From: Telluribacter roseus
GTDB lineage: Bacteria; Bacteroidota; Bacteroidia; Cytophagales; Spirosomataceae
DNA: 64,000 nucleotides
Reading direction: 5' to 3'
Assembly: GCF_017355915.2 (NCBI RefSeq)
Contig: NZ_JAFEUV020000002.1
Coordinates: forward strand, 620,001 to 684,000
Below are positions 9,052 to 61,477 of the stretch, in pieces. Below the pieces are notes generated by a model. The model searched no databases and was not told where the DNA came from. It was given only the letters and a program-made list of their open reading frames with translations. How positions within the stretch are numbered: the first letter of the stretch is position 1; the number at the start of each line of letters is the position of its first letter. The translations under genes and the position numbers were made by a program.

Positions 9052-10386
9052 CTAGAGTACCATTGAAAAAACCGTTCCTTCCCCTACTTCCGAATGGGCA
9101 GTAAGCTGTCCGCCGTGCTGCTGCAGGATCTGCCGTGACAGACTCAGCCCAATACCCGAGCCGGTCTTTTTGGTCGTGTAGAAGGGGATGAATATCTTCT
9201 CGAGGGCCTCGGGTTCAATGCCGTCGCCGTTGTCCCTGACCTCAATAATCACCGATTGGTTATCGGGTGAATACGCTATGAGCTCGATGAGCGGATGGGA
9301 CTGTTTGCTGAAAGCCTCGAGAGCATTCTTGACCAGGTTGATGAGTACCTGCTGCAACTGGTCATAATCGGCCCGAATGGATAGGTTTTCCGGTTTTACG
9401 TCTACCTGCCATAGTACCCCGGCGGAAGTAAGGTTGGCCTGTAGTAGCTGGATGACATCGCGCAGCAGATCACGCACCTCTACCTGAGCTAGGTTAGGCT
9501 TAGGCAGGGTAGTAAAGTCACGGTAGGCATTTACAAACTGCATCATACCCTGACTGCGTTTTTCCAGGGTGTACAAGGCTTCCTTAAGATCACTTACGGC
9601 TTCCTGATCAGTAGTGCTTTTCTCAATATCTTCATTCACGATCAGGCGCATGGTACCTACCAGCGACAGAATAGGCGTAAGGGAGTTCATGATCTCGTGG
9701 CGCAGTACCCGGGTCAGGTTCTGCCAGGCTTCTACCTCCTTCTGGTTGAGCTCCGTCCGGATGTTCTGCAGAGCCACGATGCGTACCCAGTTGCCCTGTA
9801 GCTGGATGGCGGTACCCTGTACGGCCAGGGGCTGGTCATTGGGGGTATTATATAGCTCCCTAACGCCCGTCTCCAGATCAGAGAGGAGCTCGTAAAGTCG
9901 GGGGTGGGTGTCCTGTAGCTCGCTCAGCTGCCGCAGGCGGTAGATGCCCAACATACGTAGCGCGGCGTTGTTGATCAGGTTGACCTGCCCGTTGGCGTCA
10001 AAAGAGATCAAGCCCGTACCGATGTGTTGTACGATGGCGTTGAGGTACTGCAGGTTGGCCTCCTTCTCAGCCCGCGCCTGCCGGAAGGCTCCCAGTACTT
10101 CGTTGAACTGCTGATTCAATTCCCGGAAGGTGGGCCCCATCTCATTATCAGAGCGGAACTTAATGGCAAAGTCGGAGTACCGTACCGACTCCAGAAAGTG
10201 GACAAACTTACGGTTGAATGAGGTGACGTATAGATAAACACTGCGCCCCACCTGCAGGGTAATCAGCCCCAGTATCCAGATGAGTAGCCAGGAGCGGGGC
10301 TCCTGTACAAGCAGGTAACCCAGTCCCATACCACAGAGGATCAGGAGACCTACCCGCCAAAAGATGCCAATAGAAAAATGACGCAT
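9052..10386 (-). CDS. NtrY-like sensor histidine kinase
   Basis: A 444-residue sensor kinase. Two N-terminal membrane segments (about 8-26 and 32-54) are followed by a HAMP-like linker, a PAS-like region near 112-148 (NAIVQHIGTGLISF), and an H-box with phosphoacceptor His230 (RHEIMNSLTP). The catalytic core has N354 (NLVKNALEAF), DNGDG (385-389), FYTTK and GSGIGLSLS. The periplasmic loop between the membrane helices is almost absent, so sensing is probably intramembrane or cytoplasmic. It is downstream of the NtrC-type regulator by 24 bases and surely its partner. In Bacteroidota this kinase/regulator pair often accompanies MacAB-like efflux genes, which fits the divergent neighbour. Confidence 0.9.
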   Translation of the reverse strand: MRHFSIGIFWRVGLLILCGMGLGYLLVQEPRSWLLIWILGLITLQVGRSVYLYVTSFNRKFVHFLESVRYSDFAIKFRSDNEMGPTFRELNQQFNEVLGAFRQARAEKEANLQYLNAIVQHIGTGLISFDANGQVNLINNAALRMLGIYRLRQLSELQDTHPRLYELLSDLETGVRELYNTPNDQPLAVQGTAIQLQGNWVRIVALQNIRTELNQKEVEAWQNLTRVLRHEIMNSLTPILSLVGTMRLIVNEDIEKSTTDQEAVSDLKEALYTLEKRSQGMMQFVNAYRDFTTLPKPNLAQVEVRDLLRDVIQLLQANLTSAGVLWQVDVKPENLSIRADYDQLQQVLINLVKNALEAFSKQSHPLIELIAYSPDNQSVIIEVRDNGDGIEPEALEKIFIPFYTTKKTGSGIGLSLSRQILQQHGGQLTAHSEVGEGTVFSMVL

Positions 10387-10410: not shown

Positions 10411-11775
10411 TTAGAGTCCGTATTTTTCCATCCTACGGTACAGGGCAGCCCGGCTCAGGCCCAGCTCGCGGGCCGTGTCAGTGATGTTGCCGTTATAGCG
10501 TTTGAGGGCTTTAACAATCATGTTCTTTTCCATTTCTTCCAGATCAAATCCGGTGGCAGCGGCTGGCTCCGGACCTGTGTTCTTGAGGAACAGGTCCTCC
10601 GGCTGGAGCGCATTGGACTGCGACAGAATCACCGCCCGCTCGATGGCGTGCTGCAGCTCACGGATATTGCCGGGCCAGTTGTACTGCTCCATTTTTTTAA
10701 CCAGCGCGGCACTCAGTGACGATACCGGACGGCTGTACTTCTTGCGGAACTGCTTGAGGTAGTGCTCGGCCAGCGGGGCTATATCCTGCGGACGCTCGCG
10801 CAGGGGTGGTAGTTCCAGTTCGATGGTATTGATGCGGTAGAGCAAGTCCTGCCGGAACTGCCGGTCGGCTACCATCTTATCCACATTTTGATTGGTAGCG
10901 CAGATGAGCCGGACATCTACCGGTATGGGTTTGTTGGAGCCTACGCGCGTAATACGCCGCTCCTGAATCACCGTCAGCATCTTGGCCTGCAGGGGTAGGG
11001 GCAGGTTGCCAATCTCATCCAGGAATATGGTACCTCCCTGCGCTTCTTCAAATCGTCCGGGGCGGTCTTCCTTGGCGTCGGTAAAGGCTCCTTTGACGTG
11101 ACCAAAGAGTTCGCTCTCGAACAAAGACTCGCTCAGGGCACCCAGGTCTACGGTCACGAAGGGCTTATCGGCACGCCTGGAGAGCTGGTGAATGTGGCGG
11201 GCCAGCTGGCTCTTACCGGTACCGTTCTCCCCTAGTACCAGTATGTTGGCATCGGTAGGCGCTACACGCTCTACGGTATCCAGTACCTGCTGCATGGCCA
11301 CACTACTACCTATGATAGACGTATCCGATGCTTTCTTTTCGGGTTTCCTGTCTTCACCGTTACCTGACTTATCCTTGCGGCTCTGCAGCGCATTCTCGAT
11401 CGTAGCCAGTAGCTTGTCGTTCTCCCAGGGCTTAAGTACAAAGTCAGCCGCGCCGGCTTTGATAGCCCGGACCGCCATTTCTACATCCCCATAGGCTGTG
11501 ATCATAATGACGGTTGTTTCGGGAGCTATGTCCAGGATGCGATCCAGCCACTGAAAGCCCTCGCGCCCACTGCTGACGTCACGGGTAAAGTTCATGTCCA
11601 GAAGGACAAGGTCGTAGGCTCCGTTGGTAACCAGGAAGGGAAGGCGTTCGGGGTTCTTCTCGATATCGGCCTGTTTGACGTGACGTTTCAGTAATAACTT
11701 GGCCGCACTGAGTACGTCCACGTCATCGTCCATGATAAGGATTTTGGATTGGGAGAGTTGCATGAATGATAGCAT
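10411..11775 (-). CDS. Sigma-54-dependent NtrC-family response regulator
   Basis: A 454-residue enhancer-binding protein. The receiver has phosphoacceptor Asp60 (VLLDMN) and Lys115. The AAA+ domain has Walker A GENGTGKS (182-189) and Walker B TIFLDE (249-254), and WPGNIREL is near 367-374. A Fis-type helix-turn-helix is at about 428-452 ([19 protein letters not shown]). The sigma-54 contact loop reads GAFTDA (229-234) rather than GAFTGA. Start ATG at 11775, with ATG at 11763 ([14 protein letters not shown]) equally possible. Phosphorylated by the kinase encoded next, it should activate sigma-54 promoters; the dyad pairs at 11.9, 25.2, 48.2 and 53.5 kb are proposed as its targets. Confidence 0.92.
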
Positions 11776-11906: not shown

Positions 11907-11942
11907 TGTTCGGCAGCGAACAAAAGTGTCCGATAATGAACA
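11907..11942 (+). promoter_or_regulatory. Paired enhancer dyads upstream of the adaptor gene
   Basis: Two 16-base dyads, TGTTCGGCAGCGAACA (11907-11922) and TGTCCGATAATGAACA (11927-11942), have centres exactly 20 bp apart. The first extends to 20 bases (TTTG...CAAA). They lie between the divergent NtrC-type gene and the adaptor, 74.5 bp (proximal centre) before the GG of the sigma-54-like element. They are proposed upstream activating sites for the neighbouring regulator and might also control its own gene. Confidence 0.7.
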
Positions 11943-12007
11943 ATCCAGTAGGGGGTAAAAATTAAGATATGGCTGAAATACAGCAAATTAGGCGGTTTCT
12001 GTTGTTC

Positions 12008-12022
12008 TGGCACGGGGATTGG
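12008..12022 (+). promoter_or_regulatory. Sigma-54-like -24/-12 promoter of the adaptor gene
   Basis: TGGCACGGGGATTGG: the -24 half is a perfect TGGCACG and the -12 half reads TTGG where the consensus is TTGC, with correct GG-N10-G spacing. Predicted start near 12034, leaving a leader of about 50 bases before the ATG at 12084. Confidence 0.7.
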
Positions 12023-12083
12023 GTATAGAGACCTAACAGATTGACAAACCTATTTAGCCATACATAAAGACATTCATAATACA

Positions 12084-13397
12084 ATGGAAATTAAAACACC
12101 CCCTTTTGGTACTCCCAAAAACGGCTTCGTCGAGAATAATTCTAGCTCTATGGATCGCATCAAGCCCAAGAAGTTTTGGAACAGCCGTCGTATTGGTGGT
12201 ACAGTCATAGGTGTGCTGCTCGCAAGCTTTATTATATACCAGTTCTTATTTGCCGACAAACGCAGTAAGCTGAACGTAGAGGTAGATAAGCTCACGGTAT
12301 CTACGGTAAAGCAGGGCGAGTTTGATGAATTTATCGCCGTGACCGGTGTGGTACAGCCCCTGAAGACCATCCAGCTGGATGCGATCGTAGGAGGGTACGT
12401 AACCCAGAAGCTCGTTGAGGGCGGTAATATGGTCAAGCAGGGTGATGTACTGCTCCGCCTCGAAAACCAGAGTCTGAAGCTCAACTTCCTACAGTCCGAA
12501 ACCGAAGCCAGCCGCCTCGTCAACGACCTGCAGAATACCCGTCAGCGCCTGAGAGTAGAACGCTTTAACCTGCAAAAGACTCTGAGCGAACTGGACTTTC
12601 AGATCGACCAGGCCCGTGATGCCCACCGTCGTAATGAGCAGCTGTTCCGTGACAAAGTAATTCCTGAAGCTGACTACCTGAAAACCAAGCGGGAGTTTGA
12701 GCGCCTGACCAAGCAGCGCGAAATTGAGGTAGAATCGCAGAGGTATCAGGAGGAAAACGCCAGGATGCAGATCACCCAGCTGGAAGGTACCCTGGCCAAT
12801 ACCCAGAAAAACGTAAGCCTGTGGCGCCAGACGCTCGATAACCTGGTGGTGAAGGCGCCGGTATCCGGTCTGCTGTCTTCTATGAACGTAGAGGTAGGTT
12901 CAAACATCAACCAGGGCCAGAACATCGGTCAGATCGATGACCTGGATGGCTTCAAAATGCGTGTCGGTATTGACGAACACTACATCTCCCGTATCTTCGT
13001 TGGCCTCCGCGCCTCCATGGACTTTGATGGCAAGACCTTTCCACTCGAAATCGTAAAGATCTATCCTGAAGTACGCAGCGGACGCTTTGAAGTAGATATG
13101 AGCTTTGTGCAGGGAGCCCCCGAGCGCATCAAGCGTGGCCAGTCTACCCCGATTCGCCTGCAGCTGGGCCAGCCTTCCAAGGCTACTCTGCTACCCGTGG
13201 GCGGCTTCTTCTCCGACACCGGTGGCAACTGGGTATACGTTGTCAACGGAGATGGTAGCAAGGCCTCACGCCGTAAGATCACCCTGGGCCGTAAAAATCC
13301 TGAGTACTTTGAAGTACTGGAAGGCCTCGAGCCCGGCGAAAAAGTCATCACCTCATCTTACGAGAATTTCGGGGATAATGAGGTGTTGGAATTCTAA
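12084..13397 (+). CDS. MacA/HlyD-type periplasmic adaptor (membrane fusion protein)
   Basis: A 437-residue adaptor. A cytoplasmic N-terminal tail of about 36 residues precedes one membrane anchor (IGGTVIGVLLASFIIYQFLF, about 37-56). Then follow the barrel-sandwich first half (VTGVVQPLKTIQLDA and GGYVTQKLVEGG-MVKQGD), a long alpha-hairpin coiled coil (about 130-255), the second lipoyl half (LVVKAPVSGLLSS) and beta-barrel and membrane-proximal domains. Such adaptors couple an inner-membrane ABC transporter to an outer-membrane TolC-type channel. No channel gene is in the window, so it must lie elsewhere. It is the first gene of the efflux cluster, under the sigma-54-like promoter. Confidence 0.9.
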   Translation: MEIKTPPFGTPKNGFVENNSSSMDRIKPKKFWNSRRIGGTVIGVLLASFIIYQFLFADKRSKLNVEVDKLTVSTVKQGEFDEFIAVTGVVQPLKTIQLDAIVGGYVTQKLVEGGNMVKQGDVLLRLENQSLKLNFLQSETEASRLVNDLQNTRQRLRVERFNLQKTLSELDFQIDQARDAHRRNEQLFRDKVIPEADYLKTKREFERLTKQREIEVESQRYQEENARMQITQLEGTLANTQKNVSLWRQTLDNLVVKAPVSGLLSSMNVEVGSNINQGQNIGQIDDLDGFKMRVGIDEHYISRIFVGLRASMDFDGKTFPLEIVKIYPEVRSGRFEVDMSFVQGAPERIKRGQSTPIRLQLGQPSKATLLPVGGFFSDTGGNWVYVVNGDGSKASRRKITLGRKNPEYFEVLEGLEPGEKVITSSYENFGDNEVLEF

Positions 13398-13938: not shown

Positions 13939-14616
13939 ATGCTCAGAACTACTAATTTGCAGAAAGTATTCACCACCGAAGAGGTGGAAACCACCGCCCT
14001 CAACGGCATTGATATGGAGATCAAGGACGGTGAATTTGTGGCCATTATGGGTCCTTCGGGATGTGGTAAATCCACCCTCCTGAATATCCTGGGGCTACTG
14101 GACAACCCTTCCGAAGGTACCTACGAGTTTTATGGTACGGATGTATCAAGAATGTCGGAGCGGCAGCGGGCGCAGATTCGTAAGGGCAACATTGGCTTCG
14201 TGTTCCAGAGCTTTAACCTGATTGACGAACTTACTGTGTATGAGAACGTCGAGCTACCCCTGCTGTACCTGAAGACGCCTCCCAATGAGCGCAAGGATCG
14301 CGTAGAAGCAGCCCTGACCCGCATGAACATGATGCACCGCCGCAACCACTTTCCGCAGCAGCTATCGGGTGGTCAGCAGCAGCGTACGGCTATCGCCCGG
14401 GCGGTAGTAGCTACTCCCAAAACCATCCTGGCGGATGAGCCTACGGGTAACCTCGATTCCAAGAACGGTGAAGAGGTAATGAACCTGCTCCGTCAGCTCA
14501 ACGAAGGTGGTACTACCATCATCATGGTAACGCACTCCCCCTACGACGCCGGCTTCGCCCACCGCATCGTCAACCTCTTCGACGGTAAAATCGTGACCGA
14601 AAAGGTACATGTATAG
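13939..14616 (+). CDS. MacB/LolD-type ABC transporter ATPase
   Basis: A 225-residue nucleotide-binding subunit of normal LolD/FtsE-class size. Walker A GPSGCGKST is at 38-46, the Q-loop Gln90 in FVFQS, the signature LSGGQ at 142-146, Walker B ILADEP at 163-168, and the H-loop His199. It powers FtsX-fold permeases by a mechanotransmission cycle rather than conventional substrate translocation. It is the only ABC ATPase gene in the window, against eleven candidate permeases. The ATG at 13939 follows a pyrimidine-rich leader like those before the permease genes. Confidence 0.93.
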   Translation: MLRTTNLQKVFTTEEVETTALNGIDMEIKDGEFVAIMGPSGCGKSTLLNILGLLDNPSEGTYEFYGTDVSRMSERQRAQIRKGNIGFVFQSFNLIDELTVYENVELPLLYLKTPPNERKDRVEAALTRMNMMHRRNHFPQQLSGGQQQRTAIARAVVATPKTILADEPTGNLDSKNGEEVMNLLRQLNEGGTTIIMVTHSPYDAGFAHRIVNLFDGKIVTEKVHV

Positions 14617-22641: not shown

Positions 22642-25107
22642 ATGAAAATTACTACCATGAAAAACAGAACGAGTACGATCCTGATGTCCTGGCTGGTGGC
22701 CTGTGGACTCCTGCTTTTCGCTCCGGCTGCTCTGGCCCAAAGTACCTCCGGTACAGCTTCCATCACCGGTACCCTGGCCGACTCTGCCAGCCAGAAGAAA
22801 CTGGATTTTATCACGGTTCACCTGATGACCAACCCTGGTACCCTCCTGAAAGTAGACTACACCCGGACGGACGGTACTTTTGCCTTTAAAGGCCTGCGCC
22901 CGGGCAAGTACCTGGTAAGCCTGGTAGGTGTAGGGTACCTGCCCAAAACCGTAGCCGCGGACCTTACGGATAGTACCCGGCAGCACCTGGATCTGGGCCC
23001 GCTCTACCTCAGCCAGGGTACCGTCGGGCTAAAAGAGGTAACGGTGAAGGCAGCCAAACCCATCGTGGTCCAGGAGGTAGACCGCATTGCCTATGACCTG
23101 CAGGCGGATCCGGAAAGCAAAGTTTTCAGCGTACTGGAAATGATGCGCAAGGTACCTCTGCTTTCGCTGGATGCCGATGACAACATCCTGCTCAAGGGCA
23201 ACACCGACTTCAGGATCCTGATCAACGGCAAGCCGTCCAGCATGGTTGAGCGGAACTACAAGGATATCCTGCGGTCTATGCCGGCTTCCTCCATTCAGCG
23301 CATTGAGGTTATTACCACGCCACCGGCCAAGTACGATGCCGAGGGGCTGGCGGGGATCATCAACATCATTACCAACAAAAAGGTCGACAATGGGTATAAT
23401 GGTACCTTGAATATAAGTGAGCGCTTCCCGATTGGCGGTCCCGGTGTGGGAGGCTCTTTTTCAGCCAAAGTAGGCAAGTTTGGTATGTCGGTCATTGGCG
23501 GGGCCAATACCTTTACTTCTCCGCGTATTTCGATTGCCACTCAGCGCACTACCACCGGCATGCAGCCAACGAGCCTTTTTCAGAACGGCAGCCAGCAGTC
23601 ACGTAATAATAGTGCTTATTTGGGATATGAACTAAGCTACGAACTGGACAGCCTGAACCTGTTTTCGGGACAATTTAATATTAACGGCAGCCGCTCCAAC
23701 GGGCGGATGGGGCAGGACAGCCGGCTCCTGCGCGATGACCTTCTTTTGCAAGGGTATAACCTGAACAATTTTACCCAGGGCCGGGGCACGGGTATGGATG
23801 CAGCACTGAACTACCAGAAAGGGTTCAGGGCGGATAAAAACCGGATGCTCACCTTTTCGTACCGCTATTTCTCGTACCGCAATGAGCAAAGAAACACGAT
23901 TGACATCACGGATGAGGTAGCCTACTTCCAGCCTGATTACCGCCAGCTAAACGATCAGGGCTTCGCCGAACAAACCTACCAGATGGACTACGTGTACCCG
24001 GTGAAAAAACTAACGGTTGAAGCCGGGGCCAAAGCCATTCTCCGGATCAACGAGAGTGATTTCCGGCACCACAGCCAGAACACCGAAACGGGGGAGTTTG
24101 AGATACAGCCCGGCCTGAGCAATCAGTTCCGGAACGAGCAGAATGTCTACGGCGCCTACAATACGTACCAGTACAACTTCAAAAACTGGGGCCTCAAAGG
24201 GGGCGTCCGTATAGAGCAGACGATCATTAACGCGGATTTTCAGTTTACCGAACTGAAGGTACGACAGAACTACTTCAACGTGATACCATCCCTATCTGCC
24301 AATCGGAAGTTCAAAGGTGGTAAGGCGCTGAATCTTGGTTATTCACAGCGTATACAGCGGCCGGGTATTTACCAGCTGAATCCCTTTGTGGACAGATCAA
24401 ATCCAAACTTTGAGCGGACGGGAAACCCTAACCTGCGGCCCGCCCTGGTCAATGATATCCAATTGGGCTATAACTGGTCCAAAAAAGGATCGGTTAATAT
24501 TGGACTGGGCTTTACGTATTTCCGGGATCTGATCTTTCCGGTGTCGATATATGACTCTACTACCCGGATTACCCGCACCACGTTTGGCAATACCGGCCGG
24601 GCCAAGCTACCTAGCGCAAGCCTGAACGTGAACTATCCGATTACCAAACGATGGAATATGAGCCTAAACAGCCGGGCGGCCTACGGTATGGTACAAGGAC
24701 TGGTAAACGGGGTGCTGATCAAAAACCAGGGACTCATGTACAATATGGCCTTGTCGACGGGCTACCGACTGGAGAAGGGGTGGCGCGTCAATGCGAATCT
24801 GAATGTCAACGGTCCTAACCTGAGCCTGCAGGGTACCTCCAACCGTATGATCAGCTCAGCGTTCAGCGTCAACAAAGATGTAGTTAAAGACAAGCTGTCC
24901 TTTTCGGCCGCAGTGAATAATCCTTTTACCAAATTCAGACGCGACTACCGGGAGTCCTTCGGGCCTGACTTTGTGCAGTCCAACGAGCGGCTGGATTATT
25001 TCCGCTCCTACCAGTTCAGCCTGAACTACAAGTTTGGAAAGCTGAAGGAAGCCATCAAGAAAAACAAGCGAGGCATCCGTAATGACGATGTCCAGACCGG
25101 GAACTAA
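22642..25107 (+). CDS. Outer-membrane beta-barrel protein with CarboxypepD_reg and plug domains
   Basis: An 821-residue TonB-receptor-like outer-membrane protein. A signal peptide ends ALAQ (start ATG 22642; ATG at 22657, MKNRTSTIL, is equally likely). A carboxypeptidase-regulatory-like beta-sandwich (about 35-120) is followed by a plug-like domain (KGNTDFRILINGKP and VITTPPAKYDAEGLAGIINI, about 185-245) and a 14-strand-type barrel to the end. The last residues are a charged tail rather than the aromatic C-terminus expected of many barrels. It resembles the OMP_b-brl_3 group, whose ligands are mostly unknown. 41 bases after its stop begin the enhancer dyads of the next permease. Confidence 0.85.
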   Translation: MKITTMKNRTSTILMSWLVACGLLLFAPAALAQSTSGTASITGTLADSASQKKLDFITVHLMTNPGTLLKVDYTRTDGTFAFKGLRPGKYLVSLVGVGYLPKTVAADLTDSTRQHLDLGPLYLSQGTVGLKEVTVKAAKPIVVQEVDRIAYDLQADPESKVFSVLEMMRKVPLLSLDADDNILLKGNTDFRILINGKPSSMVERNYKDILRSMPASSIQRIEVITTPPAKYDAEGLAGIINIITNKKVDNGYNGTLNISERFPIGGPGVGGSFSAKVGKFGMSVIGGANTFTSPRISIATQRTTTGMQPTSLFQNGSQQSRNNSAYLGYELSYELDSLNLFSGQFNINGSRSNGRMGQDSRLLRDDLLLQGYNLNNFTQGRGTGMDAALNYQKGFRADKNRMLTFSYRYFSYRNEQRNTIDITDEVAYFQPDYRQLNDQGFAEQTYQMDYVYPVKKLTVEAGAKAILRINESDFRHHSQNTETGEFEIQPGLSNQFRNEQNVYGAYNTYQYNFKNWGLKGGVRIEQTIINADFQFTELKVRQNYFNVIPSLSANRKFKGGKALNLGYSQRIQRPGIYQLNPFVDRSNPNFERTGNPNLRPALVNDIQLGYNWSKKGSVNIGLGFTYFRDLIFPVSIYDSTTRITRTTFGNTGRAKLPSASLNVNYPITKRWNMSLNSRAAYGMVQGLVNGVLIKNQGLMYNMALSTGYRLEKGWRVNANLNVNGPNLSLQGTSNRMISSAFSVNKDVVKDKLSFSAAVNNPFTKFRRDYRESFGPDFVQSNERLDYFRSYQFSLNYKFGKLKEAIKKNKRGIRNDDVQTGN

Positions 25108-25148
25108 CCCGGTACCTGATCCTAATCCAAAATCTTACAACAAAGCCG

Positions 25149-25204
25149 CGTCCGCACCTGAACAAAACTGTCCGATATCGGACAGTTTTGTTCAGGTGTC
25201 TGTT
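25149..25204 (+). promoter_or_regulatory. Enhancer dyad array upstream of permease 4
   Basis: Three 16-base dyads at 20-bp centre spacing: CGTCCGCACCTGAACA (25149-25164), the perfect TGTCCGATATCGGACA (25169-25184) and a weak TGTTCAGGTGTCTGTT (25189-25204). The whole of 25155-25198 is a flawless 44-base palindrome. It matches the arrays at 11907, 48143 and 53502. The palindrome might double as terminator of the barrel gene. Confidence 0.7.
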
Positions 25205-25238
25205 TATAATATACTGATATACAGCGAGGTGTCGGTCT

Positions 25239-25253
25239 TGGTATAGCTTTTGA
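25239..25253 (+). promoter_or_regulatory. Sigma-54-like promoter of permease 4
   Basis: TGGTATAGCTTTTGA keeps the GG of -24 and TTG of -12 at the right spacing, but has A for the final C. It lies 63.5 bp from the central dyad to GG, identical to the sites at 48234 and 53592. Predicted start near 25265, leaving a leader of only about 16 bases. Confidence 0.55.
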
Positions 25254-25280
25254 TTAAACCAAAATACCAACTCCAAAGCC

Positions 25281-27656
25281 ATGATCAAAAACTACCTCAA
25301 AATCGCCTGGCGTAACCTTTTGAAGAACAAGGTGTACTCCTTTATTAACATCATGGGACTGACCGTCGGTATGTCGGCCTGCTTCCTGATCTTCATCTAT
25401 GTCAATTTTGAGTTGAGCTATGATGCCTTCCACTCCAAAGCCGACCGAATCTACCGGTTGGTAACAGACATAAAAACGCCTTCCGAAACCATTAATACCT
25501 CGGCTACCTCCTGGGCCTTTGCTCCGGCTATCAAGGCTGATCTGCCCGAGGTGGAAGCCTTTACCCGGGTGAGTGGCGAAAGCCTGCTGGTCAGGAAGGG
25601 AGACATCAAGTTCCAGGAAGAAAATTCGGCTTATGCCGACTCCTCTCTTTTTCAGGTATTCGACTTTGAGCTGATCAAGGGAAATCCCAAAACGGCTCTG
25701 AAAGAGCAGTTAAGTATCGTACTTTCCGAAAAAGCCGCCGAAAAGTACTTTGGCAAAGAGGACCCCATAGGCCAGAACCTACTGCTAACTGGCGAAGGGC
25801 TGGTAGCGACGGTAACGGGCGTAATGAAAAATATACCTGAGAACTCGCAGGTAAAAGCGGATGTCTTTGTTTCCATGTCAACCTTTACCCAGCGGTTTGC
25901 CAAGGGTATTGATGATCAGTGGGGCAACTTTGGGGCTTCGACTTACCTGTTGCTGAAGCCCGGTACTACCGGAAGTACGCTGGAGAAAAAGCTTCCGGCT
26001 TTTCTGGAAACCCGGGCCGGTAAGCTGATGAAGGATAACAAGATGCACTACACGCTGTTTCTGGAACCGCTCAGAGACATATACCTGCACTCCACCCGTG
26101 AGAGCCAGGGCAATGCCAACAACGTGTACATCTTCTCCATAGTGGCGGTCTTTATTCTGCTGATTGCCTGTATCAACTTCGTAAACCTGACCACCGCCCG
26201 CTCGGCCGAACGGGCCAAGGAGGTAGGGGTACGTAAGGTAGTAGGCGCCCCCCGGGCGCTGCTGGCGCGGCAGTTTATCGCGGAGTCCATCCTGCTGTGT
26301 ATGATTGCCTTTGTACTTTCTATACTACTTTCTGCCCTGCTGATCCCGCTGTTCAACGATCTGGCGGGTAAGACCATCAGTACCGGCATTCTTGATAATG
26401 GACTGTATGTACTGGGCATGTTCATTGCCTCTATTCTCATTGGTATACTGGCAGGTTTCTATCCGGCTCTGGTCCTATCTTCCTTTGAGCCAATAGTCGT
26501 CCTGAAAGGTCGTTTTGCCACCAGTGTTCGTGGTATCTTGCTACGTAAGGGGCTGGTAGCGGCTCAGTTCGCTATTTCCATTGCCCTGATCATTGCTACT
26601 ATTATTGTCTTTACCCAGATGAACTACATGCGGGATCGTGATCTGGGTTTCAGTAAAGACCAGATGCTGATTGTGAACACGCAGGGTGACCCGGCCAAGG
26701 TTAATTTTAAGGAGTCGCTGGCTTCAATACCGGGTGTTATGTCTACCGCTCTTTCGTCCAGCGTACCGGGTGGTGGTAATCCCGGAGCTTACTCCGAAAT
26801 AGAAAACAAGAGCGGCGATCTGCAGATCGCTAACCTGGACCTGTACTTCGTTGACTTTGATTATATTCCTCACTATAAATTAAAAATGGCCGCCGGACGG
26901 CCCTTCTCACGGGAGTTTGGGACGGATACTACCCAGGCCATGGTCATGAACGAAGCGGCCACCAAGTTATTCGGGTACAGTACGCCGGAGGAAGCCATCG
27001 GCCGCCGATTTAAACAGTGGGGACGTGAGGGTAAAATTGTCGGAGTAATTAAGGATTTTCATTTCCGGTCCTTGCAGGAAAAAATCAAGCCCCTCACCAT
27101 GCGCATAGAGCCCGGGGGAAGCAGCCTGGTATCGGTAAAACTGGCAGGTGGTAACATTCCCGAAACCATCAAGGCCGTAGAAGCCAAATGGAACCAGCTG
27201 GTACCTAACCGGCCGTTCAGCTACTACTTCATGGACGAGTTCTTTGACCGGCAGTACCGCAGCGAAGAGCGTTTTGAGAAGCTATTCCTAAACTTTGCTA
27301 TCCTGGCTATTTTTATCTCTTGTCTGGGGCTGCTGGGGCTGGCATCATACAGTACCCTGCAGCGCACTAAGGAAATTGGAGTACGCAAAGTAATGGGCGC
27401 TTCGATCGGCAGCATCGTAGGGCTGCTTTCTAAAGATTTCCTGAAGCTGGTACTGATTGCCTTCCTCATTGCCTCACCCATTGCCTGGTACTTCATGTCC
27501 GAGTGGCTGCAAAACTTTGAGTACAGGACCGATATCCACTGGTGGGTATTCCTGGTAGCTGCGGTTATGGCCGTGACCATTGCCTTTGCCACCGTCAGTT
27601 TCCAGAGTATCAAAGCCGCGCTGATGAACCCGGTGAAATCGCTGCGGAGTGAGTAA
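25281..27656 (+). CDS. FtsX/MacB-type ABC permease (permease 4)
   Basis: A 791-residue orphan permease with no ATPase or adaptor gene adjacent. Coupling motifs are KEVGVRKVVGA (about 313) and KEIGVRKVMGA (about 697). The first periplasmic domain is compact and the second includes GRRFKQWGREGKIVGVIKDFHF, the conserved VVG-V-x-K-D-F-H strand of the family. It is preceded by the enhancer dyads and sigma-54-like element and, further up, by the outer-membrane barrel gene. It should use the ATPase encoded at 13939, or another encoded outside the window. Confidence 0.9.
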   Translation: MIKNYLKIAWRNLLKNKVYSFINIMGLTVGMSACFLIFIYVNFELSYDAFHSKADRIYRLVTDIKTPSETINTSATSWAFAPAIKADLPEVEAFTRVSGESLLVRKGDIKFQEENSAYADSSLFQVFDFELIKGNPKTALKEQLSIVLSEKAAEKYFGKEDPIGQNLLLTGEGLVATVTGVMKNIPENSQVKADVFVSMSTFTQRFAKGIDDQWGNFGASTYLLLKPGTTGSTLEKKLPAFLETRAGKLMKDNKMHYTLFLEPLRDIYLHSTRESQGNANNVYIFSIVAVFILLIACINFVNLTTARSAERAKEVGVRKVVGAPRALLARQFIAESILLCMIAFVLSILLSALLIPLFNDLAGKTISTGILDNGLYVLGMFIASILIGILAGFYPALVLSSFEPIVVLKGRFATSVRGILLRKGLVAAQFAISIALIIATIIVFTQMNYMRDRDLGFSKDQMLIVNTQGDPAKVNFKESLASIPGVMSTALSSSVPGGGNPGAYSEIENKSGDLQIANLDLYFVDFDYIPHYKLKMAAGRPFSREFGTDTTQAMVMNEAATKLFGYSTPEEAIGRRFKQWGREGKIVGVIKDFHFRSLQEKIKPLTMRIEPGGSSLVSVKLAGGNIPETIKAVEAKWNQLVPNRPFSYYFMDEFFDRQYRSEERFEKLFLNFAILAIFISCLGLLGLASYSTLQRTKEIGVRKVMGASIGSIVGLLSKDFLKLVLIAFLIASPIAWYFMSEWLQNFEYRTDIHWWVFLVAAVMAVTIAFATVSFQSIKAALMNPVKSLRSE

Positions 27657-28424: not shown

Positions 28425-28452
28425 GTAGAGACGCAAGATATTGCGTCTCTAC
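28425..28452. repeat. GTAGAGACGC palindromic repeat, copy 1
   Basis: Twelve-base arms GTAGAGACGCAA and TTGCGTCTCTAC around GATA. An almost identical element (loop GATT) is at 61450-61477. Both lie in leaders just before a permease gene. I recall similar palindromes dispersed in cyanobacteria and Bacteroidota. Confidence 0.8.
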
Positions 28453-43456: not shown

Positions 43457-43816
43457 ATGAAACTGGCTAACCGAGAAGAACAGATTATGCACGCCTTTTG
43501 GACCCTGGGAAAGGCTTTCATCCGGGATGTGATTCCCCTCCTTCCTGACCCCAAGCCCCACTATAACAGTGTAGCAACTATGGTAAAAATTCTGGAAGGA
43601 AAGGGGTACCTAGCCCATGAAACGGTAGGAAATATGAACTGCTATCATCCGATCATTGCCCGCGAAGAATACCAGAATCACACCATTAAGGATATTGTCA
43701 ATCAGTACTTTGATAATTCGTACCCGCGCATGCTAGCTTATTTTGCCAAAGAGCAGAATCTGACCGAAGAGGAGTTGAAGGAGGTCCTGGAAATCATTAA
43801 AGCCCAGAAGAAATGA
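43457..43816 (+). CDS. BlaI/MecI/CopY-family repressor
   Basis: 119 residues, the usual size. An N-terminal winged helix (REEQIMHAFWTLGKAFIRDVI, HYNSVATMVKILEGKGYLAHE) precedes a helical dimerisation tail (LTEEELKEVLEIIKAQKK). It represses its promoter until the membrane sensor encoded next triggers its cleavage. Its stop overlaps the start of the M56 gene by 4 bases (ATGA). Confidence 0.92.
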   Translation: MKLANREEQIMHAFWTLGKAFIRDVIPLLPDPKPHYNSVATMVKILEGKGYLAHETVGNMNCYHPIIAREEYQNHTIKDIVNQYFDNSYPRMLAYFAKEQNLTEEELKEVLEIIKAQKK

Positions 43817-45564
43817 TACCTTACATTCTGCATACGGCCCTGCTTGTTGGCTGCTGCTATGTATTTTATAGGATTCTGCTGCAGAAAGAGACTTTCTACC
43901 AGCTGAACCGTTTCCTGTTACTGGCTTGCCTGTTGCTGTCGTTCCTGCTTCCACTGGCTCCTGTTCCTCATCAATGGGCGATTAGCCTACAGGGTACTCC
44001 CCCGACTGCCCAGCAGTCGGAACCGTCCGTATCTGGTAGAATTCAATCGGCCTCCGGGTTATCTCAGGGTGATCACCTGGTATCCGGCAACCTGACAACT
44101 GTACTACCAGAAAGTTCTTTTTATGTTGAACAGCTTGGTACTCTGGTTACGTGGATTTATTGGATTGGGGTAGCCGCCTTCAGCCTCAATTTCCTGGTAC
44201 AGCTCAGTATGTTAGGCTACCGGGCGTACTCGGGTCCGGTCATACGGGACGGGAGGTACCGTATTGTGGAATTAAGCGGCGATCAGGCCCCCTGCTCCTT
44301 TGGAAATACTATTTTTATCAATCCCGAAAAATACGACTGGGAGACCTACGAACAAATCCTGATACATGAGAAGGTTCATGTGCAGCAGGGGCATACCCTG
44401 GACCTCGTGCTCGCAGAGGTAATGCTGGTTTTTCAGTGGTTCAATCCTCTGGCGTGGCTGTACCGCAGAGAGATGGAAACCAACCTGGAGTTTCTGACTG
44501 ATGATCAGGTGCTTCAACAGGGTGACTGCGAGAAAACCGCCTATCAGATGAGTCTTTTGAAAGTAGCGGCTCCCCATTTTCCGCTCAGTCTTACGACCAA
44601 TTACAATCAATCACTTCTAAAAAGAAGAATAGCCATGATGAACGCGAAAAAATCAAATCTGAATTCAGCCTGGAAGTACTTCTTCCTGCTTCCAGTCCTG
44701 GTACTTACGGTATGCCTGCTCAATGAACCCATGGCAAGGGGGGAATCCATCAATGTGAATTTTGAACCGGTGGCCCAATCAAAGCCTGAAAAAGCAGAGG
44801 GTACCTGGTTGGCTACCCTGGAAGGAGACCGGGTGACGGTGCAGTTCTTTGACCGCTACGGCGATCGGAGCAGCCAGTTCCGACTTAGTGAATTAGAGGG
44901 ATACTCAGCGAAGGGCTCTGATACTTTCTCATTGACACGTGAAGCAGGTACTTTACAGTTAACAGGAAGCTTCAAAGAGAATAAAGGCTCAGGCCACTAT
45001 GAGTTCATAGGCAACAAGAGTTATCGCGACTTAATGAGCAAGGAAGGAATTCGTATCAAAGAAGATGAAGAACTGATGACATTCTTCTTGCTGGACATAT
45101 CCAACGCCTATGTACAAACGCTGAAAAAGCACGGATATACCCAACTGAAGAAGCAGGATCTTACTTCACTGGCCACTTTTGGAGTAGGTAAAGCGGACAA
45201 GCAGGATACACTTGATGTGCCGGAGCCCGGACCGGAAGATACTGATCCGCTGGGTGTAATGATCAACTCTAAAATGGTCGGGATTACCGATGAATTTATC
45301 AAGGGCTTTCATGACAAAGGTTACAAGAACATCCCGCCGGGTACCATGATCAATTTCAAATCAGTAGGGGTGACTCCGGACTATATCCAGAGTTTCGAAA
45401 AGGCGGGGTATCGGGATATACCCTACGGTACCATCATCAATTTTAAGTCAGTGGGAGTGACTCCTGAGTTTATCAGGAGCTTTGAAGACGCGGGATTCAA
45501 GAATGTTCCTTACGGTACCTATGTCAATCTAAAATCAACGGGTGTAACGCCACCAAAGGGCTAG
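43813..45564 (+). CDS. BlaR1-type M56 membrane metallopeptidase with C-terminal tandem repeats
   Basis: 583 residues. Membrane helices lie near 5-20, 34-50 and 108-135. The zinc-metallopeptidase motif is HEKVH at 185-189, and LVFQWFNPLAWLYRREME follows as in the BlaR1 family. Another helix near 290-305 leads to an extracytoplasmic region. Unlike BlaR1 there is no penicillin-binding domain (no SxxK/KTG); instead the region ends in three and a half 29-residue repeats (positions about 483-580) of the form INFKSVGVTPxxIxSFExAG(Y/F). It should cleave the BlaI-type repressor when its exterior domain senses a signal, which is probably not a beta-lactam. Confidence 0.85.
   Translation: MIPYILHTALLVGCCYVFYRILLQKETFYQLNRFLLLACLLLSFLLPLAPVPHQWAISLQGTPPTAQQSEPSVSGRIQSASGLSQGDHLVSGNLTTVLPESSFYVEQLGTLVTWIYWIGVAAFSLNFLVQLSMLGYRAYSGPVIRDGRYRIVELSGDQAPCSFGNTIFINPEKYDWETYEQILIHEKVHVQQGHTLDLVLAEVMLVFQWFNPLAWLYRREMETNLEFLTDDQVLQQGDCEKTAYQMSLLKVAAPHFPLSLTTNYNQSLLKRRIAMMNAKKSNLNSAWKYFFLLPVLVLTVCLLNEPMARGESINVNFEPVAQSKPEKAEGTWLATLEGDRVTVQFFDRYGDRSSQFRLSELEGYSAKGSDTFSLTREAGTLQLTGSFKENKGSGHYEFIGNKSYRDLMSKEGIRIKEDEELMTFFLLDISNAYVQTLKKHGYTQLKKQDLTSLATFGVGKADKQDTLDVPEPGPEDTDPLGVMINSKMVGITDEFIKGFHDKGYKNIPPGTMINFKSVGVTPDYIQSFEKAGYRDIPYGTIINFKSVGVTPEFIRSFEDAGFKNVPYGTYVNLKSTGVTPPKG
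45259..45560 (+). repeat. 87-bp in-frame tandem repeats in the M56 gene
   Basis: Repeat units begin at 45259, 45346, 45433 and (partial) 45520, each 87 bases apart, encoding 29-residue repeats. The second and third copies are the most alike, suggesting recent unit duplication. Confidence 0.8.
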
Positions 45565-45692: not shown

Positions 45693-48137
45693 ATGAAAAA
45701 AAGTCTACTTGTTTGGTTGGGCAAACTATGCCTTTTCCTGCTGTTCTCAACTGTGTTGAAGGCCCAAACTACCCCTCCGGGAGTTATCTCGGGCCTCCTG
45801 CTCGACTCTACTACCACCAAACCCATTGAGTACGCTACCGTGGCGCTGCTACCCAAAGGCCAGACCCAGTCCACCGCCGGTACCCTTACAGACGGACAGG
45901 GCAGGTTCACCTTTACAGGAGTAGCGTTGGGTGAATATGAACTGGTAGTGAGCTTCCTGGGCTACGAGACCAAAACCATCCGTGGTATAGCGCTAACGGA
46001 GCAGCGGCCCCGCGCTAATGTGGGGCCCATTCAGCTACCGGTTGTGGCTACTAATCTGAAAGAAGTAAACGTGCAGGCCATGCGGCCTACCATTACGCAG
46101 GAAGCCGACCGGATGGTGGTGAGCGTAGAAGGTACCGCCATGGCGGCGGGCAACACGGCTTTTACGGTACTGGCCCGCTCACCGGGGGTATTCGTCGACG
46201 CCGAAGGCAATATTCAGCTCAACGGCCGCAGTGGTGTCACCGTGATGATCGACGGGCGGCTCACTTACCTCTCGGCGCGGGATCTGCGGGCGATGCTGGA
46301 AGGGATGTCGGCGGAGAATATCAAGAACATCGAGATTATCACTAATCCATCCGCTAAGTACGACGCTGAAGGTACCTCGGGTATCCTCAATATCAATCTG
46401 AAAAAGAATACGCAGCGGGGCATCAATGGTAGCGTGTATGCGGGCTATACCAATAACTTCCAGCAGTACGGCTATACCTACGGCGGAAACATCAACCACA
46501 AGAGCGGCCGCTGGAACTCCTTCCTGAACCTCGACGCGGCCCGTCGGGTAGGAGGCCGCGAAGCTACCTTCACCCGTATCTTCTACGGCCAGGACCGCAC
46601 CACCTACTTCGACCAGGTCGCTACCGGCAACTTTACAGCCGAAGGGCCGCCGTCGGTGCGGCTGGGCACGGACTACAGCCTCAACGACCGGCACAGCGTC
46701 GGGTTTACGTCCTACTACGTTACCAATCGCGCCGTGTCGGACTTCCTGACAGATACCTACATTGGTTACGCACCGGCTACGCCTTCGCAGTACATCGATG
46801 CCGATAATATCAGTAGCAACACGTTCACCAGCTTTACTTCTAATCTGCACTATACCGGCAAGTTGGATACGCTGGGTACCACGCTCTCGACGGACCTGGA
46901 TTATGCCCGCATCGGCAACCGGGGCGAGGCCAACTTCTACAACTACTTTACCGACCTGGCTACCGGACAGCAGACCCGGGATTTCTTGTATACCAATACT
47001 CCCAACGGCTACAATATATACTCGGCTAAGGTAGACTTCACGCGTCCGCTGGCACCTGGACACAAGATGGAGGCGGGGATAAAGGGCAGTCGAGTTGTCT
47101 CGGATAATGATTTTCGCTTCTACTTCAACAACGAAAGATTGGTACTAGACCCGCAGCGGACCAACCACTTCAACTACCGCGAGAGCATTCTGGCCGCTTA
47201 CGTCAACTGGAACGGCAAGCTCAGCAAGCGCTTTACCCTACAGGCGGGGCTACGGGCGGAGAATACCAGTTCGCTGGGTACCTCCTATACGACCGGGCAG
47301 GTGACCGAGCGCGACTACCTCAACTTCTTCCCCAGCCTGTTTTTGCAGCAAAAGGTACGTGAGGACTACCAGGTCAGCTACAGCTACAGCCGCCGCCTGA
47401 CGCGCCCCAACTACGGCAACCTCAACCCCTTCCGATCGTACCGTGACCCGTATACCTATACGGAGGGCAATCCGTACCTGCGGCCGCAGTACACCCAGTC
47501 GTTTGGGATTAACCAAACGTTTAAAAAGGTATATAATCTGAATGCCTTTTATAACTACAACCGCGATGTCATGGCCGAGATTCCTATACTGGACGTTGCC
47601 AATGCCACCACTATTTATACCACAGGCAATGTCAACGACGGGTATAACATCGGCTTCACGGGCGTAGCCCCGCTCAAAATTGCGAAGTGGTGGGACACCC
47701 AGAACACGACGGTACTTTCGTACAGCAAGTTCACGATGGTATCCAATGAAGGACCACTCGTAAATGACCAGGTGTTCTTCATGCTGCAGTCCAACCACAC
47801 CATACAGCTGCCGCTGGAGGTACGCATGGAGCTGAACCTGCTGTACCGTGGTCCGGCTGCCTCGGGCCTGTACCACATGGCACCCATGCATAGAGTAGAT
47901 GTAGCCTTCAAGCGGAGCTTCAAGAAGAAAAAGCTGGACCTGACCGTCAACGCCAATGACCTGTTCAAGGGCTTCCGCTACTACTGGACCACCGACATCG
48001 GCGGCAACGTCAACGAGTTTGACCAGTACTTCCGCTGGCGTAGTGTGGGCGCTACCCTCCGCTACAATTTCAGTAAAGGGCAGAAGGTAGACGTGAAGCG
48101 GAGAAACAACAGTCTGGAAGAAATGAATCGTACCTAG
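45693..48137 (+). CDS. Outer-membrane beta-barrel protein with CarboxypepD_reg and plug domains (2)
   Basis: 814 residues with signal peptide ending LKAQ. A regulatory-like beta-sandwich (about 30-115) is followed by a plug-like domain (about 150-235, including NIQLNGRSGVTVMIDGRLTYLS and IITNPSAKYDAEGTSGILNINLKKN) and a long barrel ending YNFSKGQKVDVKRRN and a polar tail. Same type as 22642-25107 but only distantly similar in the barrel. It follows the BlaI/M56 pair by 128 bases, so it may be under their control. Enhancer dyads for the next permease begin 5 bases after its stop. Confidence 0.85.
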   Translation: MKKSLLVWLGKLCLFLLFSTVLKAQTTPPGVISGLLLDSTTTKPIEYATVALLPKGQTQSTAGTLTDGQGRFTFTGVALGEYELVVSFLGYETKTIRGIALTEQRPRANVGPIQLPVVATNLKEVNVQAMRPTITQEADRMVVSVEGTAMAAGNTAFTVLARSPGVFVDAEGNIQLNGRSGVTVMIDGRLTYLSARDLRAMLEGMSAENIKNIEIITNPSAKYDAEGTSGILNINLKKNTQRGINGSVYAGYTNNFQQYGYTYGGNINHKSGRWNSFLNLDAARRVGGREATFTRIFYGQDRTTYFDQVATGNFTAEGPPSVRLGTDYSLNDRHSVGFTSYYVTNRAVSDFLTDTYIGYAPATPSQYIDADNISSNTFTSFTSNLHYTGKLDTLGTTLSTDLDYARIGNRGEANFYNYFTDLATGQQTRDFLYTNTPNGYNIYSAKVDFTRPLAPGHKMEAGIKGSRVVSDNDFRFYFNNERLVLDPQRTNHFNYRESILAAYVNWNGKLSKRFTLQAGLRAENTSSLGTSYTTGQVTERDYLNFFPSLFLQQKVREDYQVSYSYSRRLTRPNYGNLNPFRSYRDPYTYTEGNPYLRPQYTQSFGINQTFKKVYNLNAFYNYNRDVMAEIPILDVANATTIYTTGNVNDGYNIGFTGVAPLKIAKWWDTQNTTVLSYSKFTMVSNEGPLVNDQVFFMLQSNHTIQLPLEVRMELNLLYRGPAASGLYHMAPMHRVDVAFKRSFKKKKLDLTVNANDLFKGFRYYWTTDIGGNVNEFDQYFRWRSVGATLRYNFSKGQKVDVKRRNNSLEEMNRT

Positions 48138-48142
48138 GAGCC

Positions 48143-48179
48143 TGTTCGCAGGCGCGCAAAAACTGTCCGATATCGGACA
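48143..48179 (+). promoter_or_regulatory. Paired enhancer dyads upstream of permease 6
   Basis: An imperfect TGTTCGCAGGCGCGCA (48143-48158) and the perfect TGTCCGATATCGGACA (48164-48179), centres 21 bp apart. The second is the core of a 30-base palindrome (48157-48186) with A/T-rich ends that may also terminate the barrel gene. Confidence 0.7.
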
Positions 48180-48233
48180 GTTTTTGGCTTATATGGGTCT
48201 GTAACATATTGATATACAGAAGGTGTGGCGGAC

Positions 48234-48248
48234 TGGCATAGTGTTGGT
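48234..48248 (+). promoter_or_regulatory. Sigma-54-like promoter of permease 6
   Basis: TGGCATAGTGTTGGT: good -24 half; in the -12 half the G is kept and C is T. 63.5 bp from dyad centre to GG. Predicted start near 48260, giving a 208-base leader. Confidence 0.55.
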
Positions 48249-48467
48249 GCAGAGACAGGTGTGTATTACGTCTGGAAGGTACAAAGGGAGAAAAAGAGGA
48301 ATGTGCCGAAGGTAACGTCTTTACAGGCCTGTGGAAACACAGGCCATGGATAAAGAGACCCAGGCATGCACCGGGCAAGGTACCTAAGGCCTGTGAGACA
48401 CTGGCCCTGGATAAGGGACTATAAAACGTAAAAAAGCCTATAGCCTAAAGCATACAGCCTATCGCTT
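48249..48467. other. Structured leader of permease 6 with two hairpin repeats
   Basis: Two related units of about 34 bases: 48325-48359 (GGCCTGTG-GAAA-CACAGGCC hairpin with a GNRA-type loop, then ATGGATAAAGAGAC) and 48387-48419 (GGCCTGTGAGACACTGGCC, then CTGGATAAGGGAC). Also GTGCCGAAGGTA (48303-48314), shared with other permease leaders. Confidence 0.55.
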
Positions 48468-53501: not shown

Positions 53502-53537
53502 CGTCCGTACTTGAACAAAACTGTCCGATTTCGGACA
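53502..53537 (+). promoter_or_regulatory. Paired enhancer dyads upstream of permease 8
   Basis: CGTCCGTACTTGAACA (53502-53517) and TGTCCGATTTCGGACA (53522-53537), centres exactly 20 bp apart. Almost base-for-base like the array at 25149-25184, including the GAACAAAACTG linker. Confidence 0.7.
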
Positions 53538-53591
53538 GTTTTGTTTTATTAAATTACCTTAATTGGTTGGTAATCAGTTGTTATACTAGAC

Positions 53592-53606
53592 TGGCATAGG
53601 GTTGGT
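53592..53606 (+). promoter_or_regulatory. Sigma-54-like promoter of permease 8
   Basis: TGGCATAGGGTTGGT differs from the 48234 element in a single base. 63.5 bp from the dyad centre to GG. Predicted start near 53618, giving a leader of about 123 bases. Confidence 0.55.
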
Positions 53607-53648
53607 ATATCGGGAGGTGAACAGTATAAGGAATAAAAGGTACAAAAG

Positions 53649-61449: not shown

Positions 61450-61477
61450 GTAGAGACGCAAGATTTTGCGTCTCTAC
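61450..61477. repeat. GTAGAGACGC palindromic repeat, copy 2
   Basis: Arms GTAGAGACGCAA and TTGCGTCTCTAC with loop GATT. Differs from 28425-28452 only in the loop. It is followed by CTAAT/CTAAC blocks before the ATG of permease 11. Confidence 0.8.

Follow-up and report, generated by a model that had tools for sequence, protein, structure and literature searches.

What controls the permease genes of this locus, and does their control region move together with the genes around it? The stretch in question, called the window here, is 64,000 nt of the Telluribacter roseus genome (G000 C2:620001-684000 in a 6.3-Mb genome, Spirosomataceae), and all positions are window positions unless a contig is named. 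The preliminary description of this DNA noted that one gene order occurs twice, an outer-membrane barrel followed by enhancer-like inverted repeats (dyads), a sigma-54-like promoter and a permease, and this order is confirmed: barrel 22642-25107 is followed by permease 25281-27656, and barrel 45693-48137 by permease 48468-50864. The barrels are only distantly alike, as was also noted, with 26% identity over 823 columns. The sequence bears out both the enhancer dyads and the sigma-54-like promoter. The arrangement probably combines an enhancer, a bend site and a sigma-54 promoter in helical phase and drives a local efflux and envelope regulon under the nearby response regulator RR1; confidence in this reading is fairly high.

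The dyad core TGTCCG-N4-CGGACA is found at 25169, 48164 and 53522 in the window, and dyads often have a degenerate partner 20-22 bp upstream. At all three perfect dyads, the distance from the core center to the GG of a -24-like TGG is 63.5 bp. The longer form CTGTCCG-N4-CGGACAG has three copies in the genome, every one of them in the window, and the reversed pattern has none. A degenerate fourth site precedes a HlyD gene (core 11927-11942); here the -24 GG lies at 74.5 bp rather than 63.5 bp, one helical turn more. A fifth strong site, with a perfect copy of the dyad, is located outside the window at C2:709548, 5' of another permease. The block GATATACAG, previously described as lying at the same offset in both promoters, indeed starts at 25216 and 48211, 39.5 bp from the dyad core centers (25169-25184 and 48164-48179). 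The four window promoters contain the following elements.

11907-11942, plus strand: tandem enhancer pair of the HlyD promoter, TGTTCGGCAGCGAACA + 4 bp + TGTCCGATAATGAACA
11966-11990, plus strand: middle palindrome of the HlyD promoter, 12/17, its center 43.5 bp from the enhancer center
12008-12023, plus strand: -24/-12 element of the HlyD promoter, TGGCACGGGGATTGGG
25149-25184, plus strand: tandem enhancer pair, CGTCCGCACCTGAACA + 4 bp + TGTCCGATATCGGACA, also a terminator-like hairpin
25207-25231, plus strand: middle palindrome with GATATACAG inside, 14/17
25239-25254, plus strand: -24/-12 element, TGGTATAGCTTTTGAT
48143-48179, plus strand: enhancer pair, TGTTCGCAGGCGCGCA + 5 bp + TGTCCGATATCGGACA; putative left seam of an exchanged block
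48202-48226, plus strand: middle palindrome with GATATACAG inside, 13/17
48234-48249, plus strand: -24/-12 element, TGGCATAGTGTTGGTG
53502-53537, plus strand: enhancer pair, CGTCCGTACTTGAACA + 4 bp + TGTCCGATTTCGGACA; putative right seam of the exchanged block
53560-53584, plus strand: middle palindrome TTGGTAATCAG, 14/17
53592-53607, plus strand: -24/-12 element, TGGCATAGGGTTGGTA

As a separate observation, the enhancer before the first of these permeases extends to a 21-bp perfect stem (25155-25198, -37.3 kcal/mol, z -10.0), with a further half-site on its downstream side.

A trained scan was run on the window together with the 39.7 kb that follow it, and on four further loci of enhancer-binding proteins. 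Its training set excluded the three pattern-found window sites and included the HlyD core among typed variants. Five strong sites scored 39.5-45.9: the one at C2:709548 and four inside the window. A weaker site at C2:708290, scoring 27.8, precedes a gene for a DUF4097 toastrack protein (L274:4290-5499), which suggests an envelope protein in the regulon. The remaining matches (21.7 and 18.6) are two of these palindromes read on the minus strand, and the scan found nothing at threshold in the reversed sequence or at the four other enhancer-binding-protein loci.

The arrangement extends well beyond this genome. The compound pattern dyad-N(40-68)-TGGYAYR, run on 222 family genomes, is present in 131 of them and in 22 of 36 genera, compared with a single match for the reversed control. 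For comparison across phyla, sites were pooled and re-scanned with spacings of 36-80 bp. The family-genome scan contributed the loci of 30 of its matches to this pool and the named-genome scan is a sample, and pooled counts from here on (spacing, -12, partner, palindrome and neighboring genes) are counts among the matches listed: 108 distinct sites in Bacteroidota and 59 in other phyla. The Bacteroidota sites come from Cytophagales, Bacteroidales, Chitinophagales, Sphingobacteriales and Saprospirales, with one each from Eximiradiales and an unplaced genome. Their dyad-to-(-24) spacings cluster at 43-45, 51-55, 61-66 and 73-74 bp, with 57 occurring twice and 78 once. Within 46-66 bp, the out-of-phase gaps of 46-50 and 56-60 hold 2 of 96 Bacteroidota sites versus 18 of 57 others (Fisher p 2.7e-7, although the sites share descent and p-values therefore overstate their independence). 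Bacteroidota dyads are helically phased to the -24/-12 element, at about 44, 53, 65 or 73 bp, whereas the matches in other phyla are not. TGGYAYR is followed by T[TG] at -12 in 101 of the 108 Bacteroidota sites and in 20 of the 59 others. A partner dyad matching at least 9 of 12 positions lies 20, 21 or 22 bp away in 23, 26 and 11 cases, or 60 of 101 Bacteroidota sites against 7 of 59 with offsets summed. A chance origin of the pattern was rejected on the basis of the reversed-pattern controls together with the other-phylum sites. A Rayleigh periodicity test is not relied on, as the control group also gave a signal, though a weaker one.

An exact dyad with a -24/-12 element is present in 12 of 392 phylum genomes sampled. 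All 4 members of the window's family have it, as do 8 of the 388 others; by eye, the palindrome is missing from some of these eight. The genes downstream of the pooled sites are mainly exporter components. Among 96 distinct genes, where one gene may match several families, there are 51 matches to MacB_PCD, 44 to FtsX, 22 to HlyD_3, 6 to ABC_tran, 4 to OEP and 2 to DUF4097. An outer-membrane barrel is the upstream neighbor at 8 of 90 sites, and the barrel was rejected as a constant partner of the dyad.

The candidate regulator is encoded beside the first of these promoters. RR1 is an NtrC-type protein with a receiver, a Sigma54_activat domain and a Fis-type helix-turn-helix (HTH) all on one polypeptide, and it adjoins a histidine kinase gene. 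Transcribed divergently from this two-component pair are, in the window, the HlyD gene, an ABC ATPase gene and 11 duplicated MacB_PCD/FtsX permeases; further permeases of this type continue past the window end. The genes that the argument draws on are listed below, with family assignments from Pfam unless another source is named.

9052-10386, minus strand: histidine kinase (PAS, HATPase_c), adjoining RR1
10411-11775, minus strand: RR1 response regulator, receiver + sigma-54 AAA+ (Sigma54_activat, GAFTDA) + Fis-type HTH
12084-13397, plus strand: HlyD-type periplasmic adaptor (also NCBIfam: DarC-like, under cut-off)
13939-14616, plus strand: ABC ATPase, LolD/MacB/DarD-like (also NCBIfam)
22642-25107, plus strand: outer-membrane barrel 1 (OMP_b-brl_3, plug, CarboxypepD_reg)
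25281-27656, plus strand: FtsX/MacB_PCD duplicated permease, target 1
45693-48137, plus strand: outer-membrane barrel 2
48468-50864, plus strand: FtsX/MacB_PCD permease, target 2, first of the putative exchanged block
51006-53459, plus strand: FtsX/MacB_PCD permease, second of the putative exchanged block
53741-56170, plus strand: FtsX/MacB_PCD permease, target 3

Directly upstream of RR1 and reading away from it, an enhancer pair, a palindrome-like element and a -24/-12 element are present in 29 of 30 RR1 loci; L220 is the one locus of the 30 without the enhancer arrangement. An RR1 homologue (E<=1e-100) is found in 129 of the 131 genomes with enhancer plus -24, compared to 44 of 91 pattern-negative family genomes, and the two pattern-positive genomes without one are assemblies that are 66% and 63% complete. 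The sigma-54 contact loop of RR1 reads GAFTDA in all 30 loci, the HTH is likewise present in all 30, and the recognition helix is nearly invariant. GAFTDA is among the variants of the GAFTGA loop counted as compatible with activity in part of PMC4641369. With this linkage and co-occurrence as the basis for binding, the dyads are most likely the enhancer sites of RR1.

Between enhancer and promoter lies a third element. A 25-bp palindrome, YAANNNNYTGATWATCARNNNNTTR, has the block GATATACAG as its middle part. The idea that this block is a 9-mer of its own was rejected, since it is an imperfect version of the palindrome. The window copies score 12, 14, 13 and 14 of 17. A score of at least 13 of 17 is reached by 76 of 101 Bacteroidota sites versus 2 of 59 others, a count that is partly circular because the palindrome was first read off family-genome matches. 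In the main class of sites, the palindrome center lies 41.5-43.5 bp from the enhancer center and 19-21 bp from the -24 GG, and in the long-spacing class the palindrome is displaced by about one turn to either side.

The palindrome is also found with another enhancer. A second efflux operon in this genome (L275), identified from open reading frames (ORFs) and family matches, consists of HlyD2, then exporter-like genes, a regulator (RR2, L275:13269-14639) and a kinase. The HlyD2 promoter shares the palindrome, but its dyad is another one, CGTGCG-N4-CGCACG. A strict -24 lies near the gene in 22 of 30 HlyD2 homologue loci; in 22 of these 22 the palindrome sits at one fixed position and scores 13-17 of 17 (shuffled mean 6.3), and a BGTGCG-like dyad, in a few cases one base off, lies 52-54 bp from the -24. 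The eight other loci were left out of this count for want of a strict -24 near the gene, L312 having no gene start. A looser pass finds a -24 in 24 of 30 loci, all 24 with palindrome scores of at least 13, a result that is biased because the -24 was picked by the best palindrome. The recognition helices of RR1 and RR2 differ (SRAALYRR vs TRFALYRR). The palindrome keeps its place in all 22 testable loci of the second efflux operon, although the enhancer there is a different one, and it is therefore unlikely to be a second binding site of RR1. As an aside, RR1 and RR2, which are both linked to exporters, have GAFTDA, and three other Sigma54_activat proteins have GAFTGA, GSFTGA and GAFTSA.

The preliminary description recommended looking for a bending-protein site at GATATACAG, and the sequence supports one that is bending-protein-like. 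The consensus for IHF is WATCAANNNNTTR, and the kink spacing of IHF and HU is nine bases. YAANNNNYTGATWATCARNNNNTTR corresponds to this IHF-type consensus on both strands, with the inner steps nine bases apart. The string WATCAANNNNTTR is printed in the H-NS row of a table in PMC6907758. According to part of PMC8421141, IHF reads an asymmetric site with an A-tract arm as an alpha/beta heterodimer; the element here is instead a palindrome. The window's genome has one match each to PF00216 and PF18291, and both are the same gene (C13:42227-42493, L202), whose product is nearest to IHF-beta but under the NCBIfam cut-off. The palindrome may work like an IHF site, yet it is not classed as one because it is symmetric and because the genome has a single HU/IHF-family match. 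A homodimer reading the palindrome would fit this single gene, and the best guess is a shared HU/IHF-like bender, perhaps homodimeric. An FNR box was considered and rejected because its spacing is wrong.

In the proposed mechanism, the neighboring kinase would switch on RR1, perhaps in response to envelope stress or toxic peptides, and RR1 dimers would bind the tandem dyads 20-22 bp apart. A bender, most likely a homodimeric HU/IHF-type protein, would bind the 25-bp palindrome between enhancer and promoter and fold the DNA back. The AAA+ domains of RR1 could then reach the sigma-54 RNA polymerase waiting at the -24/-12 element and drive its opening. The HlyD-ATPase-permease operon and several further FtsX/MacB permeases would be turned on as a result. 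The need for all three sites to face one another is the proposed reason why the spacings differ by roughly whole helical turns.

Several observations weigh against this mechanism, beyond the circularity and shared descent mentioned above. The usual sigma-54 -12 box is TTGC[AT], and the window boxes read TTG[GA], with a one-base shift in their register. The palindrome scores below 13 in 25 of 101 sites, and the window's HlyD promoter, outside the 101, scores 12. The arm tip of the HU/IHF-like protein is RNIS and not the classical RNP, which means that a kink made by proline intercalation should not be taken for granted. Of the 173 genomes with an RR1 homologue, 44 do not have the exact pattern, although this pattern overlooks degenerate sites like the one before HlyD in the window. 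RR1 and the pattern are both absent from 47 genomes, of which 38 belong to one small-genome genus. Moreover, in loci found by palindrome and TGG alone (30 of 44 matches), a proper -12 was accompanied by the TGTCCG-type enhancer in 13 of 13 cases, and the independence of the palindrome from this enhancer therefore rests on the second operon.

Other explanations account for parts of the same evidence. The dyads could be mainly intrinsic terminators of the upstream barrel genes whose nearness to the permease promoter is incidental. The three perfect window dyads do fold strongly (-37.3, -30.7 and -21.8 kcal/mol), there is a terminator-like match at 25155, and a TTT run lies 3' of the core at 33 of 52 sites whose upstream gene is codirectional, compared with 16 of 43 whose upstream gene is divergent (p 0.014). 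However, the upstream gene is divergent at 43 of 95 classified sites, helical phasing with the -24 would not be maintained by a terminator, and the pair stands upstream of RR1 in nearly all of its loci, where the window's RR1-HlyD copy folds weakly (-11.5 kcal/mol). Termination as the main function is very improbable, and the dyad hairpins may double as terminators. Rather unlikely, too, but with more in its favor, is that the palindrome is a contact for the RNA polymerase alpha subunits (UP-like), or for a dedicated dimeric repressor or co-activator, and not a bend site. Its center is some 20 bp 5' of the -24 GG, the place expected for an alpha contact, and the element is a clean palindrome. 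Against this, the palindrome of the long-spacing class can sit 30-32 bp from the -24 while still 42.5-43.5 bp from the enhancer, and both strands agree with the IHF consensus in the outer YAA and TTR, set at exactly four bases, with 9 bp between the inner steps.

A further possibility, compatible with the phased enhancer mechanism and able to explain the repeated gene order, is that the control regions are joints of exchange, where permeases are gained, lost or swapped by recombination behind a barrel-plus-control unit or between two dyads. The preliminary description had suggested that the control cassette and the permease 5' end move or are duplicated as a unit. The control region does appear to act as an exchangeable unit, but the permease 5' end is not part of it: the start M..NY..[IV]A.R.[LI] is common to all 11 window permeases, with or without a dyad, and targets 1 and 2 are 39% identical, inside the 29-46% range of the window permeases. 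Alignment of the window control regions with their flanks shows homology that spans the sites only. In relatives, the control unit is found elsewhere and with other neighbors, both for barrel 1 and at the barrel 2 seam. Barrel 1 homologues (E<=1e-150) are present in 10 of 61 family genomes, and four of them (in G000, G015, G024 and G050) keep the control region, with a perfect dyad 50-73 bp past the last codon. In the other six, the best dyad match in 700 bp reaches only 7-9 of 12, and no permease-like start was found among forward ORFs of >150 aa in 1.5 kb. The next full permease behind barrel 1 differs in each of the four genomes (32-42% pairwise identity; the one in G050 is partial). The G050 permease is 78% identical to the window permease at 61530, which has no dyad; that of G024 is 61% identical to the permease at 72482; and in G015, the sister species, a 124-aa permease remnant stands first behind the barrel.

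Three genomes (the window's, G015 and G024) were compared in detail, and barrel 1 has another place in G015 and in G024 than in the window. In the window it sits between two permeases that adjoin in G015. Its G015 counterpart lies ~70 kb further along the cluster, between orthologues of the genes at 72482 and 79336, and its G024 counterpart lies behind the orthologue of the gene at 75570. The orthologues of the target 1 permease (91% in G015, 81% in G024) are both elsewhere, without barrel or dyad, and the one in G015 directly follows the orthologue of the permease at 19729. The window copy of barrel 1 may have come from outside, because it is 77-78% identical to those of G015 and G024, which are 85% identical to each other, despite an RR1 identity of 98% between window and G015 and 84% between window and G024. 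At barrel 2, the permeases at 48468 and 51006 are not found at this place in G015; the permease at 51006-53459 is 91% identical to its G024 match and at best 62% in the G015 stretch. The left side of the G015 barrel-2 control region matches dyad 48164 at 54 of 60 positions versus 20 of 60 for dyad 53522, whereas the right side, through the permease start, aligns to 53522 with a score of 80 versus 20.5 for 48164. The G015 region joins the left side of one dyad to the right side of the other, and the two dyads would therefore be the seams of a gained or lost two-permease block. On the other side, the detail comes from three genomes in which gain and loss are indistinguishable, and the dyad-permease pair at C2:709548 is kept in all three. 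The chance that the control regions are such joints is put somewhat below even. The target 3 permease (53741) keeps its dyad in the G015 orthologue. In G024, the orthologue (57%) of the permease at 19729 is preceded by a dyad promoter (C6:91456) that is absent from the window and G015 copies: between permease orthologues, control sites are gained or lost.

These results can be placed beside known systems. NifA/NtrC/XylR-type sigma-54 promoters have an IHF site between the enhancer and the -24, and IHF reportedly acts at the Pu promoter. Like these, the promoters here combine tandem enhancer dyads, a -24/-12 box, a bending-type site between them and an AAA+ response regulator. Unlike these, the candidate bend site is symmetric and not a consensus plus A-tract, the spacing is short and helically phased, and one bend site occurs with two enhancer types. 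The exporter genes resemble MacAB-TolC and the darobactin exporter DarBCD in having an HlyD adaptor, a separate ATPase and a MacB_PCD/FtsX permease, but they differ in the many duplicated permeases in one contig region and in falling under the NCBIfam cut-offs (DarC 192.5/450, DarD 273.4/375, DarB 127.5/700, ADOP 327.1/622.3). The proposed envelope-stress logic, with a DUF4097 toastrack gene behind the weaker site, is like that of phage-shock and Lia-type responses. Sigma-54 control of COG0577/FtsX-like permeases, Bacteroidia included, was predicted as first evidence in PMC12316311, which in the portion consulted scores promoters and gives no enhancer, regulator or bend site, IHF occurring 0 times in its main text. 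Relative to that portion, the enhancer, the regulator and the bend site described here are new. Among titles and abstract openings of open-licence papers, none was found describing an enhancer, a symmetric bend site or gene exchange in this setting.

If correct, these findings would provide a readable promoter grammar for Bacteroidota sigma-54 regulons, made of an enhancer dyad, a symmetric bend site, a -24/-12 element and whole-turn spacing, and would name the likely regulator of expanded FtsX/MacB exporter sets. Since two different enhancers would share the same bend site, nature would also have supplied a test of loop geometry, and swapping whole genes at common control regions would be one way in which exporter permeases could be rewired. 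Taken jointly, the observations tentatively suggest, at a little short of an even chance, that a homodimeric IHF-equivalent of Bacteroidota on the symmetric 25-bp palindrome is a regulator-independent loop architect at sigma-54 promoters. Enhancer-binding proteins would swap only the dyads (TGTCCG vs TGTGCG) on the same phased frame, and these frames, because they are interchangeable, would act as joints for plugging permeases into and out of the exporter regulon.

Some neighboring features complete the description of the window. Just 5' of barrel 2, at 43457-45564, a gene for a BlaI-type penicillinase repressor is followed by a BlaR1/M56 peptidase gene, which contains an 87-bp tandem repeat at 45340-45519. 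A 28-bp near-palindrome, GTAGAGACGCAAGATNTTGCGTCTCTAC, has two copies (28425-28452 and 61450-61477), each ~50-60 bases 5' of a permease start; such a pair occurred in 0 of 100 shuffles. By eye, a hairpin resembling GTAGAGACGCAAGATNTTGCGTCTCTAC is also present 3' of the permease ending at 22107.

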